From contig JAVBXY010000009.1 of NCBI GenBank assembly GCA_030824275.1, positions 1 to 64,000 on the forward strand: a stretch of 64,000 nt of DNA, given 5' to 3'. Numbering within the stretch: the stretch's first letter is position 1; every line of letters begins with the position of its first letter. Position numbers and translations under genes: made by a program. This DNA comes from Rhodocyclaceae bacterium (GTDB taxonomy: Bacteria > Pseudomonadota > Gammaproteobacteria > Burkholderiales > Rhodocyclaceae). Positions 20,945-28,526 of the stretch are shown in pieces. The notes beneath the pieces were generated by a model. It made no database searches. It saw only the letters and a program-made list of their open reading frames with translations, and was not told where the DNA came from.

Positions 20945-21703
20945 ATGGCGCATGACGCCCATCACGCGGAAGGACACGCTCACGCCCACTGGGACACCAG
21001 TGTCTGGCCTTTCGTCATCAGCTTCGGCATCTTGTTTCTCGCCGTCGCGTTTTCATTCAAGTTCGTCTATCACAACAGCTTTGCCGCGATTCTTTCGATG
21101 GGATTGGCGCTGCCGATGATCATTGCCGGCGTCGCTGGCTGGACCAGCGAGGCCATGGGCAAGGGCGATGGCTTTTCCTACTCGGCGATGGGCTGGTTCA
21201 TCCTGGCCGAGGCGATGATCTTCGCTTCCTTCTTCGTCAGTTACTGGTACACGCGGCTACACGCCGATGTCTGGCCCCCGGCAGGCAATATCACTTTGCC
21301 GAAACTGATGCCGCTGGTGATGACCTTCGTTCTGGTCGCATCGTCCCTGACGATTCACTACGCCGAGCATTTGCTGCACCTTGGCAACAAGGCAGGTTTC
21401 CGCACCTGGTACTTGCTGACCATTGTGCTTGGCGCCGTTTTCCTTGGCATGTCCATCTACGAATGGTCGCACCTGATCCACGACGGTTTTACCATCGGGA
21501 CCAATGCATTCAGCACCGTATTCTTCTCCGTCACTGGCCTGCATGGTTCGCACGTGGTGGTGGGTCTCGGCATCTTCCTGGCCGGCTTGCCCACCGTAAT
21601 GCGGGGCGATGTCGATGAGGGTTTCATGCGTACCGCAGGTCTGTACTGGCACTTCGTGGACATCATTTGGTTCTTCGTCGTTTCGCAAATCTATTACTGG
21701 TAG
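20945..21703 (+). CDS. ctaE: cytochrome c oxidase subunit III
   Basis: 252 residues with a His-rich N-terminus (HDAHHAEGHAHAH) and about seven membrane helices. MGWFILAEAMIFASFFVSYWYTR and GLYWHFVDIIWFFVV are subunit III signatures. It is the first gene of the oxidase operon, unlike the common II-I-III order. The next gene begins inside its last 37 bases. Confidence 0.92.
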   Translation: MAHDAHHAEGHAHAHWDTSVWPFVISFGILFLAVAFSFKFVYHNSFAAILSMGLALPMIIAGVAGWTSEAMGKGDGFSYSAMGWFILAEAMIFASFFVSYWYTRLHADVWPPAGNITLPKLMPLVMTFVLVASSLTIHYAEHLLHLGNKAGFRTWYLLTIVLGAVFLGMSIYEWSHLIHDGFTIGTNAFSTVFFSVTGLHGSHVVVGLGIFLAGLPTVMRGDVDEGFMRTAGLYWHFVDIIWFFVVSQIYYW

Positions 21704-22536
21704 TGGTCGCCGGCCTGGCCGGCGTACCTGCTTGGGCAGTCAGCGAACCGACGCGCAACAGCGCGCCGGATTCGTCGGTGATGCAGATCGACGAGCCGCG
21801 CTTCCTGGGTAACCGCTTGCAGGCCGAGACGTGGTTGACGGACGCGGAGGGCATGGATTTCCGCGTCGGGGAGTTGATGGGCAAGCCGCTGATCCTGTTG
21901 CTGTCGTACTACGGCTGCGACGGGACTTGCCCGACGATGAATGCGGAGTTGGCGAAGGTGCTGGAGAAGGTCAAGCGCTTTCAGCTGGGCAAGGATTACC
22001 GGGTGTTGACGGTGTCCTTCGACAAGCGGGATACGACGGGTACGGCGAAGGAGTTTCTCGCCAAGTCGGCTGGTGTACCGGACGGCATGCGAAATGGCTG
22101 GCGTCATGCGATCCTGAAGGCGGGAGGCGCGGACGGCGGAGTGGAGAAATTTGCCGGAGAAGTAGGGTTTCGCTTCTTCTGGTCGGATGCGGCAGGGGCG
22201 TTCCTGCATCCGAATGTGCTGGTGTTTTTGACGCCTGAAGGACGTGTGGCCCGCTACATCTACGGCACGCGGATGGATGCGCAGACGATTGAACTGGCGA
22301 TCACCGATGCTGACTGGGAGCGGATTTCCAGTTCAACGGCGGTGTTCGACATGCTGACGGGAGCCTGCTTCAGCTACAACTATGCGGAAGGCAGGTACCA
22401 GTGGAATTATTCGCTGCTGGCCGGTATCGGGTCCCTGGTGTTGGGGCTGACCTTGATGCTGCTGGGGGCGTGGGCATATCGCAGGAAAATGATTAAGAAA
22501 ATGGCAGCACTAAAAAGGGGGGAAGGGCATGCATGA
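21667..22536 (+). CDS. SCO1/SenC family copper-assembly protein, long form
   Basis: 289 residues: signal peptide VLRRFANLLLVVVAGLAGVPAWA, a thioredoxin-like SCO domain with SYYGCDGTCPTM (CxxxC, about 80), then a C-terminal membrane helix (about 250-272). SCO proteins deliver copper to the CuA site of subunit II, encoded next. The TTG start overlaps subunit III by 37 bases. It gives a convincing signal peptide, so I keep it; a GTG near 21703 is the alternative. A tail anchor distinguishes it from the two other SCO genes here. The usual downstream SCO histidine may correspond to FLHPNVLVF. Confidence 0.85.
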   Translation: MVLRRFANLLLVVVAGLAGVPAWAVSEPTRNSAPDSSVMQIDEPRFLGNRLQAETWLTDAEGMDFRVGELMGKPLILLLSYYGCDGTCPTMNAELAKVLEKVKRFQLGKDYRVLTVSFDKRDTTGTAKEFLAKSAGVPDGMRNGWRHAILKAGGADGGVEKFAGEVGFRFFWSDAAGAFLHPNVLVFLTPEGRVARYIYGTRMDAQTIELAITDADWERISSSTAVFDMLTGACFSYNYAEGRYQWNYSLLAGIGSLVLGLTLMLLGAWAYRRKMIKKMAALKRGEGHA

Positions 22537-23314
22537 CACACTGAAACGCGTTCTTCGCGGGGCTGCGGCCATGGCGTCGGGTACGGCGCTTGCCGCATCC
22601 GCCCAGGCTGCCGATGCGACGAAGATCGCCAACCCGGCTGCCAGCTGGGACCATCTCTGGCACGAGGTGATTGTCGATATCACGATCATCGGCATCATCT
22701 TCGCCTTGATGACGGCCTACTTTGTCTGGAAGTACCGCCGCCGTCCCGGCAATGAAGTGGGTACCTCCGACAAGCTCAGCCCCGCTTCCGCAGTGGGCTG
22801 GGTGGTGATTCCGGTGTTCGTTTTCCTCTCCATCGACTTCTACACCGCCGCCAACGGCTGGGTGCTGTGGAACGAATACCGTGATGTGCCTGCCGACCGC
22901 CTTGAGGTCAAGCTTGAGTCCGGTATGTATAGCTGGGATTACACCTATCCCAATGGCGTGCGCACCCAGAACGAACTGATCGTGCCCGCCGGCAAGCCGG
23001 TGATGCTGCGCATGACCAGTCGCGATACCCTTCACAGCCACTACATCCCCGACTTCCGCGTCAAGGAAGATTCGATGCCGGGCCGCGTGACTTACCTGTG
23101 GTTCAACCCGACCAAGCCGGGTGAGCACATTGTCACCTGCGCCGAATACTGCGGCGTGATGCATGGCTACATGGCCGGCCGCATCATCGTCAAGGCGCCG
23201 GAGGAATACGCCGCCTGGATGAAGCAGGAAGAAACCCGCCTTGCCGCCGCGACGGCTCCTGCCGAAGCAACGCCGGCTGCCAAGCCCGCCGCAAAGCCGG
23301 TCAAAAAGACTTAA
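22529..23314 (+). CDS. ctaC: cytochrome c oxidase subunit II (CuA)
   Basis: 261 residues with a signal peptide, two membrane helices (about 45-68 and 85-105) and a cupredoxin domain. The CuA site is visible as SHYIPDFRV plus CAEYCGVMHGYM. The C-terminus is an Ala/Pro/Lys tail without a fused heme-c motif, so electrons must come from a separate cytochrome such as the c4 nearby. The start overlaps the SCO gene by 8 bases. Confidence 0.95.
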   Translation: MHDTLKRVLRGAAAMASGTALAASAQAADATKIANPAASWDHLWHEVIVDITIIGIIFALMTAYFVWKYRRRPGNEVGTSDKLSPASAVGWVVIPVFVFLSIDFYTAANGWVLWNEYRDVPADRLEVKLESGMYSWDYTYPNGVRTQNELIVPAGKPVMLRMTSRDTLHSHYIPDFRVKEDSMPGRVTYLWFNPTKPGEHIVTCAEYCGVMHGYMAGRIIVKAPEEYAAWMKQEETRLAAATAPAEATPAAKPAAKPVKKT

Positions 23315-23327
23315 AAGGAAGCACACG

Positions 23328-24899
23328 ATGAATCTCAAGGAATGGATCTTCACCACCGACCACAAGCGTGTCGGGGTGCTTTACCTGATCGGCTCCATCG
23401 TCGCCTTTGCCGTCGCCGGCATCATGGCGCTACTGATGCGGGCCGAGTTGTCCACCATCGGCCCCACCATCACCGGCAACCCGACGCAGTACAACGTCTG
23501 GCTGTACGCCCACGGCGCGGTGATGATTCTCGGCTTCCAGATTCCGGCGCTGACCGGCTTCTTTGCCAACTACTGCATCCCGCTGATGATCGGTGCCAAG
23601 GACGTGGCTTTCCCCCGCGTCAATGCGCTGTCGGTGTGGTTGTTCTACGTCGGCATTATCCTCGCCGTCCTGACCTTCTTCATTCCGGATCCTCCGGATG
23701 TGATGTGGACCGGTTACCCGCCCTACTCGACGATGACTACCGGCAACACGGCGATGTATTCCTTCACCGTGCTGATTCTGGGTTTCGCATCAATCATCGG
23801 CGGCGTTAACTTCCTCACCACCGTTGCCTACATGCGCGCCCCGGGCCTGACGCTGAACAAGCTCAACATCTTCGTCTGGTGCACTCTCGGCGCCTTCGTC
23901 CTACAACTGATCTTCGTGCCGGTGCTGGGCACGGCCGTGACCCTGATCAGCCTGGACAAGTACCTGGGCACCAACTTCTTCGATCCTTCGAAGGGGGGCG
24001 ACGTGCTGACCTACCAGAACCTGTTCTGGTTCTACTCGCACCCGGCCGTGTATGTGATCTTCCTGCCCTTCATCGGGGTGGTGTATGAAATCATCGCGTC
24101 GCACGCCAAGAACATGGTGTTCAACTACAAGATGGTGGTGTACGGCGGCATCGGCGGTATCGTGCTGCTGTCGGGAGAGGTATGGGTTCACCACCTCTAC
24201 GTGTCCGGCATGGCCGACTGGCTGCGCATCGGCCAGATGGTGACCACGCTGATGATCTCCGTGCCCGTGGGCCTGATGATGATCGGCTTGATCGGCACCC
24301 TGCACAAGGGATCTATCGCCTTCACCACGCCGATGATGTATGCGCTGGGCGTCGTTTTCCTGTTCCTCATCGGCGGCCTCACCGGTGTGCCGCTGGCGGT
24401 GCCTTCGCTGACCCTGGCCGTGTCCGACACCTACTACGTCGTCGGCCACTTCCACTATGTGATGGCCGTGGCGGGAACCTTCGCCATCTTCGGCGGCATC
24501 TATCACTGGTTCCCGAAAGTGACCGGCAAGATGTACAACGAGTTCTGGGGCAAGGTCGGTTTCTGGATCACCTTCGTCGGCGTGAACATCGTGTTCTGGA
24601 TCATGATGGACATTGGCGTCAAGGGCATGCCCCGTCGTTACTACGACTATGCGCACTTCCCGCAGTTCGAGGATGCGCATCAGTGGATGACGCTGGGCGC
24701 CGGCATTCTGGCCGTCGGTTTTGCCATTGCCATCCTGAACTGGATACTGGGCGCCATCAACGGCAAACCGGCTGGCGACAATCCCTGGGGTTCGCCATCG
24801 CTGGAGTGGTCCACCGTATCGCCGCCGCCGCACGGCAACTGGCCGACGCCGCCGTCAGTGTCGGAAGATTGGCATCCCTACGGCTTCAAGAAAGCCTGA
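23328..24899 (+). CDS. ctaD: cytochrome c oxidase subunit I, A2-type
   Basis: 523 residues, 12 helices. Heme a and heme a3/CuB ligands are recognisable: YAHGAVMI, FYSHPAVY (CuB His and cross-linked Tyr), WVHHLYVSG and GHFHYVMAVAG. YSHPAVY in place of GHPEVY marks the A2 subfamily, which lacks the D-channel Glu of A1 enzymes and uses a Tyr-Ser pair. The ORF track begins 29 codons early; ATG 23328 has AAGGAA upstream. It pumps protons while reducing oxygen. Confidence 0.95.
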   Translation: MNLKEWIFTTDHKRVGVLYLIGSIVAFAVAGIMALLMRAELSTIGPTITGNPTQYNVWLYAHGAVMILGFQIPALTGFFANYCIPLMIGAKDVAFPRVNALSVWLFYVGIILAVLTFFIPDPPDVMWTGYPPYSTMTTGNTAMYSFTVLILGFASIIGGVNFLTTVAYMRAPGLTLNKLNIFVWCTLGAFVLQLIFVPVLGTAVTLISLDKYLGTNFFDPSKGGDVLTYQNLFWFYSHPAVYVIFLPFIGVVYEIIASHAKNMVFNYKMVVYGGIGGIVLLSGEVWVHHLYVSGMADWLRIGQMVTTLMISVPVGLMMIGLIGTLHKGSIAFTTPMMYALGVVFLFLIGGLTGVPLAVPSLTLAVSDTYYVVGHFHYVMAVAGTFAIFGGIYHWFPKVTGKMYNEFWGKVGFWITFVGVNIVFWIMMDIGVKGMPRRYYDYAHFPQFEDAHQWMTLGAGILAVGFAIAILNWILGAINGKPAGDNPWGSPSLEWSTVSPPPHGNWPTPPSVSEDWHPYGFKKA

Positions 24900-24917
24900 A
24901 GGGTTCCACGCTGAACG

Positions 24918-24943
24918 ACAAGGCACCCTGCGGGGTGCCTTGT
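24918..24943 (+). terminator. hairpin after oxidase subunit I
   Basis: A 10-bp stem CAAGGCACCC/GGGTGCCTTG with a TGCG loop, followed by TTCATT. It has only a weak T-run, so it may attenuate rather than fully end transcription before the next SCO gene. Confidence 0.6.
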
Positions 24944-24959
24944 TCATTCTGGAGTTGAA

Positions 24960-25598
24960 ATGAAAGCTGCCTGGATTCCCCGCCTGCTACTGCTTGGTCT
25001 GGCCTTGATGTTGATCGGCGCCTACGTGACCTGGCGCAACCTGAAGGCGGGCCCATTGCCGGCAGGTGAGCTACCCAGCGTCACCGAAGTACGGGACGAC
25101 AAGCCGCTGCCTAACTTTTCGCTGAAGGGGCCCGGTGGTGCATTTGGCAATGCGAACCTTACCGGGCGCTGGAGTTTCGTCTTCTTCGGTTACACGCAAT
25201 GTCCCGACATTTGCCCGACGGCATTGGGGCTGATGAAAGAATTGAAGGCGAGGTTGAGTGACCCGGTCGCCGTATCACCAGCGCCGACTTTTCAGGTCGT
25301 CTTCGTATCGGTGGACCCGCGCCGCGATACGCCCGAGCTGTTGGGCCAATACATGGGCGCCTTCGATTCGGCCTTCATCGGCGTGACTGGGGACGATTCG
25401 GCGCTGGCACCGCTGGTGAAGGATCTCGGTGTCTTCTTCCAGCGTAACGACGCCAAAGACACGAAGCACTACACCGTCGATCACTCCGCAGCGATCTATC
25501 TCATCGACCCCAAGGGCCGGCTCGCCGCCGTATTCTCTCCACCGCAGGATGCGGCGAAGATGGCGGAGAACTTCAAACGGATCAGCGCCAGAAATTAA
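24960..25598 (+). CDS. SCO1/SenC family copper chaperone
   Basis: 212 residues with an N-terminal membrane anchor (about 9-27) and SCO domain: FFGYTQCPDICPTALG (CxxxC, about 80), VSVDPRRDTPE and DHSAAIYLIDP (the conserved copper-ligand His, about 180). It follows subunit I by 61 bases. A repeat copy adds VSPAPTF just before the FVSVDP strand, in a surface loop where family members vary. Confidence 0.92.
   Translation: MKAAWIPRLLLLGLALMLIGAYVTWRNLKAGPLPAGELPSVTEVRDDKPLPNFSLKGPGGAFGNANLTGRWSFVFFGYTQCPDICPTALGLMKELKARLSDPVAVSPAPTFQVVFVSVDPRRDTPELLGQYMGAFDSAFIGVTGDDSALAPLVKDLGVFFQRNDAKDTKHYTVDHSAAIYLIDPKGRLAAVFSPPQDAAKMAENFKRISARN
25269..25292 (+). repeat. 24-bp dispersed repeat, copy 4
   Basis: Perfect core and box, sense in the second SCO gene, encoding VSPAPTF. 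Confidence 0.92.
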
Positions 25599-26947
25599 AT
25601 CCGCTTCCTGAGCATCGCTCGCAGGCAGACCAGCACGAACATCACACCGCCGATGATGGCGATGAGGCCACCAGCGCCCATCATGCCCATGCCGATTTTC
25701 TGCGGCAATGTCGTGAGCACCTGTTCTGCGCCCGCTACTTTGCGCTGCACGCCATAGCCGCCCGACCAGGCCAGACCCAGCACATGGATCAGTTGGCCGC
25801 CCCCATAGGCGTAGGGCTGCCAGCGAGCCATTTTGCCCTCCGCCGAACCGAAGCCCAGGCGCGGCAACAGCACGTAACTCAGGCCCATGAACGCCAGCGT
25901 CACACCGACGATGGAGCCGTGGTAATGCGCAGGAATAACGACATTGACACCCTTGATCATAAAGGCCAGTACGCCGCCGACCGCGAATAGCAGGAAGGAG
26001 GCGGCGAAGGCCGATTTGGCCGGCGCTACTACCCCGCGTACACGCCACAGCGAAACCCCGGCAACCAGGATCAGCGGCGTCATCAGCGGATGTCCCGCTT
26101 CCATGAGTCGGGCAAAATACGCCCTGTGCCAGGGCGAGCCCACGTCCCAGAGCGTGTAGATCACCGGTACGGCGAGCACCGGCAGCGCCGCCACGCCGAA
26201 CAGCAGGGCCGTCGTGCGCGGACTGATGCGCGGTGTCTCGCCCAGTTCGCTGGCTAGCCAGAACCAGGCCACCGCCAGCAGCAGCGCATGCTGGAATTGC
26301 AATGCGTGACCCCCGCCCCAGAACACCTCCTCGAAATAGGCTTGCCCTTCGTGAGGTGGAGCGTTGAGCCAGGAAAAGCCGAAACCGAGAAACGCGAAAC
26401 TGCCCGCCAGCGCGGCCAGCAGAATGCCGAACTGCAATGCCGCCGTGCCACCAGCGCCGACTTTTAATTGGATGGAGACCAGTGCCCGCGACAAAGTCAG
26501 CATGAAGCCGATGCCGGCAAGAATCAGCCCGGCGAAGAACACCGGCTGTTGCAACACGGGGATGTAGTTGTTGAGCAGCGGCTGGGCATCGGGGAAGAAG
26601 GGCGACATCGTCAGCACAGCCGTGCCGATTGCCGCCAGCCAATATCCGGCCCAGCCCAGTGCCGCAAAACGGGCATTGCCGGCAAGGCTGAACAGCATGC
26701 AGGCGGCGGCCATGAACCAGATCAATACCGACAGATCCACATGCACGACCAGGGCCGAACGGAAAAAGTCGCGCAGCGGAAATACATGCTGTATGCCCGG
26801 CGTGCGCGAGAGCACCAGCAGCACCGCAAGCAGACCCGAGCCGATCAGCGCGGCGATGCCTAATGCAAGCCAGGCCCGGGCCAGTTTGATCGGAAGCGGA
26901 CGAGGCAAACCATCGGTGACATCAAGGACATAGGGCTGCATGAACAA
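25595..26947 (-). CDS. divergent heme-copper oxidase subunit I, NO-reductase-like
   Basis: 450 residues, about 12 helices. Candidate heme/metal ligands are HVDLSVLIWF (about 68), WGGGHALQFQHA (about 198), WHRAYFARL (about 265), PAHYHGSIVG (about 325) and QLIHVLGLAWSGG (about 375). The helix VI motif is HALQF: the position of the catalytic cross-linked Tyr of true oxidases is Phe. That is characteristic of NorB-like and other non-canonical members. No NorC or oxidase subunit II accompanies it on this strand. A repeat copy is antisense (KVGAGGTA) in a loop. It may reduce NO, or be an uncharacterised oxidase-family member. Confidence 0.75.
   Translation of the reverse strand: MFMQPYVLDVTDGLPRPLPIKLARAWLALGIAALIGSGLLAVLLVLSRTPGIQHVFPLRDFFRSALVVHVDLSVLIWFMAAACMLFSLAGNARFAALGWAGYWLAAIGTAVLTMSPFFPDAQPLLNNYIPVLQQPVFFAGLILAGIGFMLTLSRALVSIQLKVGAGGTAALQFGILLAALAGSFAFLGFGFSWLNAPPHEGQAYFEEVFWGGGHALQFQHALLLAVAWFWLASELGETPRISPRTTALLFGVAALPVLAVPVIYTLWDVGSPWHRAYFARLMEAGHPLMTPLILVAGVSLWRVRGVVAPAKSAFAASFLLFAVGGVLAFMIKGVNVVIPAHYHGSIVGVTLAFMGLSYVLLPRLGFGSAEGKMARWQPYAYGGGQLIHVLGLAWSGGYGVQRKVAGAEQVLTTLPQKIGMGMMGAGGLIAIIGGVMFVLVCLRAMLRKRI
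26442..26465 (+). repeat. 24-bp dispersed repeat, copy 5
   Basis: Perfect core and box, antisense in the NorB-like gene, encoding KVGAGGTA between two membrane helices. Confidence 0.92.
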
Positions 26948-27054
26948 GGACTTTCCGTGCGGGGGAGGGCGAAGTATACGTGCCGACCGCGTGATAAACT
27001 CGCCTGCGAACTTTGGGCCTCAATCATTCACGTCTTATAAGAAACGGCCACCCG

Positions 27055-27951
27055 ATGAAAGCCATCGCCCTGAACCTGCAGGAGACATCCAATCGCTTGC
27101 GTCAGTACCTTGAACTGACCAAGCCTCGCGTCATATCGCTGATCGTGTTTTGCGCGGTCATCGGCATGTTCCTCGCCGTGCCCGGCATGGTGCCCTGGCG
27201 CGTGCTGTGCGCAGCTACGCTGGGCATCGCCCTGGTGGCCGGTTCCGCCGCTGCCGTGAATTGCCTGATCGAACAGAAGATCGACGCCCTGATGGCGCGT
27301 ACCCGTGGCCGTCCTCTGCCGCGCGGCGAAGTTAACTCGCTGGAGACGCTGCTGTTTTCCGGTGTCGTCGGTGGTATCGGCCTGTCGCTGCTCTATGCGA
27401 TGGTGAACCCCTTTACCATGTGGCTGACGCTGGCAACTTTCGTTGGCTACGCGGTGATCTACACCGTCTTCCTCAAGCCCAATACCTCGCAGAACATCGT
27501 CATCGGCGGTGCCTCGGGCGCGATGCCGCCGGTGCTCGGTTGGGCCGCCGTCACCGGCGAGGCGCCGGGCGAAGCCTGGCTGCTGTTCCTAATCATCTTC
27601 GTGTGGACGCCGCCGCACTTCTGGTCGCTGGCGCTCTACCGCACCAAGGAATATGCCGCTGCTGGCATCCCCATGCTGCCAGTGACGCACGGCGCCGAAT
27701 ACACCCGTCGGCACGTGTTCCTCTACACCATCGGCCTGACGCTGATCACGCTGGTGCCTTTCGCCATCGGCATGTGCGGCTGGTTCTATCTGATCTCTGC
27801 CGCGATTCTCGATGCCATCTTCCTCGGCTACGCCTGGCTGGTCTGGCGCGAGTACACCGACGATGTAGCGCGCAAGACATTCCGCTGGTCGATCCTCTAT
27901 CTCTCGCTGCTTTTTGCCGCGCTGCTGATTGACCACTATCTGCCGGTGTGA
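27055..27951 (+). CDS. cyoE: protoheme IX farnesyltransferase (heme O synthase)
   Basis: 298 residues from ATG 27055. A UbiA-family enzyme attaching farnesyl to heme b, the precursor of heme a for the oxidase upstream. [12 protein letters not shown] starts the first helix, [21 protein letters not shown] is the first Asp-containing prenyl-binding motif, and [17 protein letters not shown] is CyoE-specific. The track start 14 codons earlier lacks support. The next SCO gene overlaps its stop (TGATG). Confidence 0.95.
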
Positions 27952-28526
27952 TGCGGCGCCTGCTACTGGCCCTGTTGATTGCTCTGCTCGCCGCCTGCGG
28001 CCAGTCGCAAAAGTTCAATGCCACCGAACTGACGGGCATCGACTGGGGCAAAGACTTCGCCCTCACCGATCACCATGGCAAGCTGCGCCGGTTGGCCGAC
28101 TTTAAGGGCAAGGCGGTGGTGATGTTCTTCGGCTACACCCAGTGCCCTGACGTCTGCCCGACCAACATGGGCAACATGCGCGAAGTGATGGTCAAGCTGG
28201 GGCCGTATGCCGAGCGGGTACAGATGCTGTTCATGACCATCGACCCGGAACGCGATACGCCCCAATTGCTGGCCCAGTACGTACCAACCTTCCATCCATC
28301 CTTCCTTGGGCTTTACGCAGATCCCGTCACCACACTGGCGACGGCTAAGGAGTTCAAGGTTTTCTACCAGAAGCAGCCTGGATCAACACCCGGCACTTAT
28401 ACGGTGGACCACACGGCCGGCAGCTACGTCTTCGACCCGCAGGGGCGCTTGCGGCTTTACCTGAAGCATGGGGAAACGCCGGACCACATTGTCGAGGACC
28501 TGCGAAAGCTTCTCGCCGGGAAATAA
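27951..28526 (+). CDS. SCO1/SenC family copper lipoprotein
   Basis: 191 residues with a lipobox (LLIALLAAC|GQS) and SCO domain: FFGYTQCPDVCPTNMG, TIDPERDTPQL and DHTAGSYVFDP. It is the third SCO in the cluster and is predicted to be lipid-anchored. ATG 27951 overlaps the cyoE stop as TGATG; a GTG one codon earlier is possible. A strong bidirectional terminator follows. Confidence 0.92.
   Translation: MRRLLLALLIALLAACGQSQKFNATELTGIDWGKDFALTDHHGKLRRLADFKGKAVVMFFGYTQCPDVCPTNMGNMREVMVKLGPYAERVQMLFMTIDPERDTPQLLAQYVPTFHPSFLGLYADPVTTLATAKEFKVFYQKQPGSTPGTYTVDHTAGSYVFDPQGRLRLYLKHGETPDHIVEDLRKLLAGK

Follow-up and report, generated by a model that had tools for sequence, protein, structure and literature searches.

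The window analyzed here, a 64,000-nucleotide stretch of DNA from a Rhodocyclaceae bacterium, encodes a divergent homologue of heme-copper oxidase (HCO) subunit I, hereafter FAM, that is predicted to keep both heme sites of the superfamily (H69/H343, H341, and an Arg–Lys propionate clamp) and has lost the CuB site. Judged from its sequence and its genomic associations, FAM may well be a heme-binding, CuB-less pseudo-oxidase with a role in the biogenesis of heme A oxidases.

Gene, fold, and position in the superfamily

The FAM open reading frame (ORF) was intact and ran from a TTG codon to a stop codon (25595–26947, minus strand; 450 codons); residue numbers are counted from the TTG at 26947. 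Because GGAAAG lies just upstream of the ATG at 26941, we take that codon as the likelier start (25595–26941; 448 amino acids). The protein matched the Pfam COX1 model (PF00115) with 49.6 bits (cut-off 34.8), and no match was obtained among the NCBIfam models or the plasmid records; searches of the PDB sequences with the single sequence and with a profile returned antibody noise or nothing. The AlphaFold2 model, which contains no cofactors, had a pTM of 0.89, and its best PDB matches in Foldseek were HCO subunits, headed by ba3 (TM 0.72). PF00115, AlphaFold2, and Foldseek thus all point to the 12-helix fold of subunit I.

In the profile comparison, the hhalign probability was 99.9% for the B-family and eNOR-like proteins, 91% for the A family, 30% for cNOR, and 3% for cbb3. 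A quick tree of 55 sequences recovered FAM as a monophyletic group (support 100), with the eNOR-like clade as its sister (95) and then ba3 (98); the sister relationship is less sure than the monophyly because long branches were flagged. The separate clade and the HCO fold bear out the proposal of the first-pass annotation that this is a new member of the superfamily. Grouping with the cbb3 oxidases, set beforehand as the outcome that would speak against it, was not observed, the profile probability being 3% and the tree placing FAM on the B-family/eNOR-like side. Assignment to either cbb3 or cNOR was rejected, as these formed separate clades and had low profile probabilities. No family like FAM was found in the literature searched, which left preprints and most subscription journals outside its range.

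Table 1. Features of the window discussed in the text (position 1 is the first nucleotide of the window)
Feature	Coordinates	Strand	Basis
Cytochrome oxidase subunit III (COX3)	20945..21703	+	PF00510
SCOa, SCO-like, C-terminal membrane segment	21667..22536	+	PF02630
Cytochrome oxidase subunit II (COX2), CuA domain	22529..23314	+	PF00116, TIGR02866
COX1, A-family subunit I, SHPAVY type, CuB ligands and Tyr intact	23328..24899	+	PF00115 425 bits; motifs
SCOb, SCO protein, convergent with FAM, 4-bp overlap	24960..25598	+	PF02630
FAM, HCO-fold, CuB-less	25595..26941	-	ORF; PF00115 49.6 bits; AlphaFold2 pTM 0.89; Foldseek to ba3 TM 0.72
FAM Arg402-Lys403 codons, equivalent of the heme-propionate Arg pair	25739..25744	-	Invariant 100/100; opposite RR of aa3 and eNOR-like enzymes
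FAM His341-Tyr-His343 codons, helix X high-spin and low-spin heme ligands	25919..25927	-	Invariant 100/100
FAM residues 262-265 (V-I-Y-T), expected helix VII CuB His-His site	26153..26164	-	Two profile alignments (B/eNOR-like, A family); no conserved His pair
FAM Phe218 codon, catalytic Tyr position	26294..26296	-	F in 96/100; opposite ba3 Tyr, eNOR-like Gln
FAM His214 codon, helix VI, sole retained CuB-type His	26306..26308	-	Invariant 100/100
FAM His69 codon, helix II low-spin heme ligand	26741..26743	-	100/100 homologues; register from hhalign
CtaB, heme O synthase, divergent from FAM	27013..27951	+	TIGR01473 324.7 bits
SCOc, SCO protein; adjoins FAM in many Rhodocyclales loci	27948..28526	+	PF02630

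Residues kept and lost across the family

Residue conservation was assessed in a broad alignment of 100 FAM homologues and in a set of 60 close relatives. The residues H69, Y128, W210, G213, H214, Q217, H341, Y342, H343, R402, and K403 were invariant in the 100 homologues, so that the heme ligands typical of the HCO superfamily (H69 in helix II, H341 and H343 in helix X) were present throughout. They are identical to those of the B-family ba3 oxidase, which is also the best structural match; FAM differs from ba3 in lacking the helix VII CuB ligands and the catalytic Tyr.

The ligands of CuB in heme-copper oxidases, and of FeB in the respiratory NO reductases, are one His of helix VI and a His–His pair of helix VII. 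Only the first of these, H214, is found in FAM, and the helix VII pair is absent family-wide. In profile alignments with the B/eNOR-like and A families, the CuB His–His fell opposite V262–I263 or Y264–T265, and no conserved His column was present between helices VI and X in the 100 sequences. His occurred at H274 in 67%, at H286 in 60%, and at position 264 in 20% of the broad set, and HH was seen in this region in a single sequence (L077, EHHH). H274 and H286 were considered as replacement CuB ligands and rejected, since they are kept in the close relatives but are His in only 67% and 60% of the broad set. The loss of the pair had not been noticed in the first-pass annotation, whose suggestion of an enzyme using SCO-loaded copper is not supported, given the absence of both helix VII CuB/FeB ligands from the whole family.

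Helix VI of FAM reads FWGGGHALQFQHA and contains the motif FWGGGHALQFQH. The earlier observation of a Phe at the catalytic Tyr position held: it is Phe218 (His214 + 4), shared by 60/60 close relatives and 96/100 sequences of the broad set, in place of the helix VI Tyr of A- and B-family oxygen reductases. That FAM has no His–Tyr cross-link, as had also been stated, follows from the sequence. With no His pair in helix VII and Phe at position 218, FAM has lost the catalytic Tyr as well as two of the three CuB ligands, so it is unlikely to reduce O2 or NO.

The eNOR-like proteins, the nearest clade, have some gene clusters in common with FAM and share with it an invariant Gln at helix VI His + 3 (GHSSQQ in the eNOR-like sequences). 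However, they keep the helix VII His–His and have Gln at His + 4, where FAM has Phe, and helices VII–X are shorter in FAM. A Gln in place of the Tyr is diagnostic of eNOR, a B-like NO reductase (PMC8756737); FAM, with Phe there and no CuB His–His, is a sister clade only. The resemblance to cNOR is that of the superfamily: whereas NorB has a helix VI Glu, an FeB His–His (GTGHHYxWIG), and a NorC partner, FAM lacks all three, having an HALQF motif with no Glu in helix VI and no His–His, and NorBC is encoded elsewhere in the genome. The 55-sequence tree held no sNOR, gNOR, nNOR, or qNOR references, and the missing His–His argues against FAM belonging to any of these groups.

The loss of catalytic residues would also be expected of a decaying, functionless former oxidase. 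We give this reading almost no credence, because the ORF is open in scores of genomes, residues are invariant, and neighborhoods are conserved; this conservation indicates purifying selection on the gene.

Gene neighborhoods and distribution

As described in the first-pass annotation, FAM stands on the opposite strand inside an oxidase cluster, in which the genes for COX3, SCO, COX2, COX1, SCO, CtaB, and SCO are all on the plus strand. The cluster contains no NorC, again as first described, and NorB and its adjoining cytochrome c subunit gene are on another contig of the genome. Three different SCO proteins are encoded in this one cluster (21667–28526), without Cox11/CtaG. The SHPAVY motif by which we denote the COX1 of the window (23328–24899) is its helix VI sequence. 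In six of six aligned examples of this COX1 type, neither the Glu of helix VI nor the Lys of the K channel was present, their places being taken by Leu or Met, and the CuB His–His, the Tyr, and the D-channel Asp were kept; its proton uptake is a separate question. The genome has five HCO genes, namely FAM, canonical aa3, SHPAVY aa3, cbb3, and NorB, none of which is eNOR-like. Its CtaA gene is on a contig other than that of FAM.

In named genomes, 62 FAM-related loci were found, mainly in Rhodocyclales (Accumulibacter, Sulfuritalea, and Propionivibrio), with few beyond this order (e.g., Rhodoferax sp. U2-2l). Members in further families came from a sample of 399 genomes of one phylum, many of them incomplete, in which 58 genomes carried FAM; this count leaves out G126 (one weak match of 19 bits) and G161 (matched only by eNOR-like relatives).

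FAM occurred in several settings. In the first, that of the window and of L006, L022, L056, and L057, it lies on the opposite strand to COX3–SCOa–COX2–COX1 with CtaB, and the same arrangement was found in a distant genome (L124). In the second, FAM lies within 356 bp of CtaA, as in 25 of the 50 genomes with both genes. The 27 FAM–CtaA pairs were on the same strand in 15 cases and on opposite strands in 12; same-strand pairs in the f39 genomes are 33–86 bp apart, as measured by the matched regions, and the two genes overlap by 4 bp in L106. Two separate pairs per genome were present in G136 and G201 (L117, L169, and L170). The third setting is the vicinity of eNOR-like operons, where CtaB, SCO, and two cytochrome b fusions of an unusual kind are also found. 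One fusion, of about 637 amino acids, joins cytochrome b to 2Fe-2S, FAD, and NAD domains, and the other, of about 523 amino acids, joins it to 4Fe-4S and FlpD domains (both in L063, L028, L023, and other Rhodocyclales); the 637-amino-acid fusion is absent from the genome of the window. In the fourth, FAM lies in clusters of canonical aa3 genes that also include SURF1 and CtaB (L017 and L055). Heme O/A synthesis and copper chaperones are common to these four settings. The fifth comprises a longer branch of FAM adjoining ResB, CcsA-like, and multiheme (paired CXXCH) cytochrome genes (L111, L112, L113, L116, L118, and L121), mostly with a C-terminal TPR tail. The function of this TPR-fused branch, which lies beside cytochrome c biogenesis genes, may differ.

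Retention of the heme sites in the absence of a catalytic metal, together with the frequent divergent orientation of FAM to CtaA or CtaB, an arrangement possible for regulators, would also suit a heme-based sensor or gas-binding protein that takes up O2, NO, or CO at an open H341 heme and regulates the activity of the oxidase or of CtaA. We consider this improbable, as the 450-amino-acid protein has no output domain, and the TPR tail is confined to the longer branch.

Co-occurrence with heme A genes and a proposed role in oxidase assembly

The SHPAVY oxidase, counted as COX1 relatives at E <= 1e-150, was present in 43 of the 399 genomes, and 40 of these 43 carried FAM; the genomes with the oxidase and no FAM (G149, G161, and G169) are all 69–74% complete. 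The A-family COX1 proteins examined in FAM-containing genomes, canonical aa3 cases aside, were all of the SHPAVY type. CtaA was found in 51 of 54 FAM-containing genomes tested and also in the genome of the window, so the replacement of CtaA by FAM was rejected. Across the whole sample, CtaA was present in 277 genomes and SURF1 in 219, and only 3 of 55 FAM-containing genomes had SURF1. Among CtaA-positive genomes, SURF1 was found in 3/54 with FAM versus 216/223 without FAM (Fisher p about 4e-44), a value that overstates the evidence and is not a fair probability, as the genomes are related and few independent lineages underlie the SURF1 and SHPAVY counts. Cox11/CtaG was detected in 4 of 55 FAM-containing genomes, in a count that leaves out the caa3-type CtaG. 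A canonical aa3 oxidase is encoded in every FAM-containing genome that has SURF1 or Cox11/CtaG, and in both G366 and the genome of the window these genes adjoin the canonical aa3 genes (in the latter outside the FAM cluster, with Cox11/CtaG on contig C23).

These distributions bear on the earlier suggestion of a non-canonical NO reductase. Reduction of NO (or O2) by FAM at an altered or copper-free active site would be in keeping with its eNOR-like nearest clade, its position beside eNOR-like operons in Rhodocyclales, and its occurrence in Ca. Nitricoxidireducens bremensis (L033), an enrichment organism that respires NO. We nevertheless regard it as very improbable: FAM has neither the helix VII His pair, missing family-wide, nor the helix VI Glu, and is left with one CuB-type His; of the five HCO genes in the genome none is eNOR-like, and canonical NorBC is present; and FAM tracks the heme A genes and one aa3 oxidase type. 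Moreover, NO reduction in the enrichment organisms has been attributed to cNOR (PMC10390337). The eNOR-like operon is only one of several gene contexts of FAM, and an eNOR-specific role in this genome was rejected because no eNOR-like gene is present.

FAM retains the heme sites, has lost the copper site, and is linked to CtaA/CtaB and to a single class of oxidase; this combination is more easily reconciled with an assembly factor that would hold or pass on heme O/A than with a catalyst. In such a mechanism, CtaB/CtaA would supply FAM with heme O or heme A, which FAM would then pass to, or hold for, subunit I, the job that SURF1 does in ordinary aa3 oxidases; the client here would be the SHPAVY-type aa3 oxidase encoded alongside. 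We infer the binding of heme by FAM in vivo, its identity as heme O or A, and its transfer.

The main rival to this assembly role is an electron-transfer partner of CtaA, in which FAM would be a diheme cytochrome b that takes electrons from quinol or cytochrome c and delivers them to CtaA, or else an electron-transferring accessory subunit of the oxidase. Both heme sites are kept, direct and close pairing with CtaA is frequent (the 33–86 bp spacing in f39 genomes and the 4-bp overlap in L106), and cytochrome b or multiheme cytochrome genes lie near FAM in several contexts, all of which would suit such a partner. We judge it unlikely, since the neighbor in the window is CtaB, with CtaA on another contig, most CtaA-containing genomes of the phylum have no FAM, and an obvious site for quinol or cytochrome c was not found in the protein.

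In its proposed role as an assembly factor, FAM possibly acts in place of SURF1, a known heme A binding chaperone (PMC9145763). The likeness is one of proposed role only, the handling of heme A for aa3 assembly, with genes beside CtaA, CtaB, and COX genes, and the two proteins seldom occur in one genome. There is no homology: FAM matches PF00115 alone, with no qualifying match to PF02104, and, in contrast to the 12-helix HCO fold of FAM, SURF1 consists of an extracytoplasmic domain with a membrane segment on either side (PMC9145763). The presence of FAM in clusters with SURF1 (L017 and L055) and beside eNOR-like operons indicates that it is not a strict replacement and that general heme O/A handling is more likely. 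Against replacement, the SHPAVY oxidase may need no SURF1 at all; SURF1 is missing from Bacillota (PMC9145763).

A review of bacterial assembly proteins notes that new assembly factors may arise by gene duplication and calls their origins and losses enigmas (PMC9145763). It is possible, though we hold this with less confidence than the assembly role itself, that a duplicated catalytic subunit lost its copper site and became a heme A loader for a separate aa3 class, and that it took over from SURF1, and perhaps also from Cox11/CtaG, in several lineages of Proteobacteria. FAM genes match subunit I models and could be miscounted as NO or O2 reductases in surveys. Heme insertion into heme-copper oxidases is poorly understood, and FAM is a concrete candidate factor for this step in genomes from which SURF1 is mostly missing.
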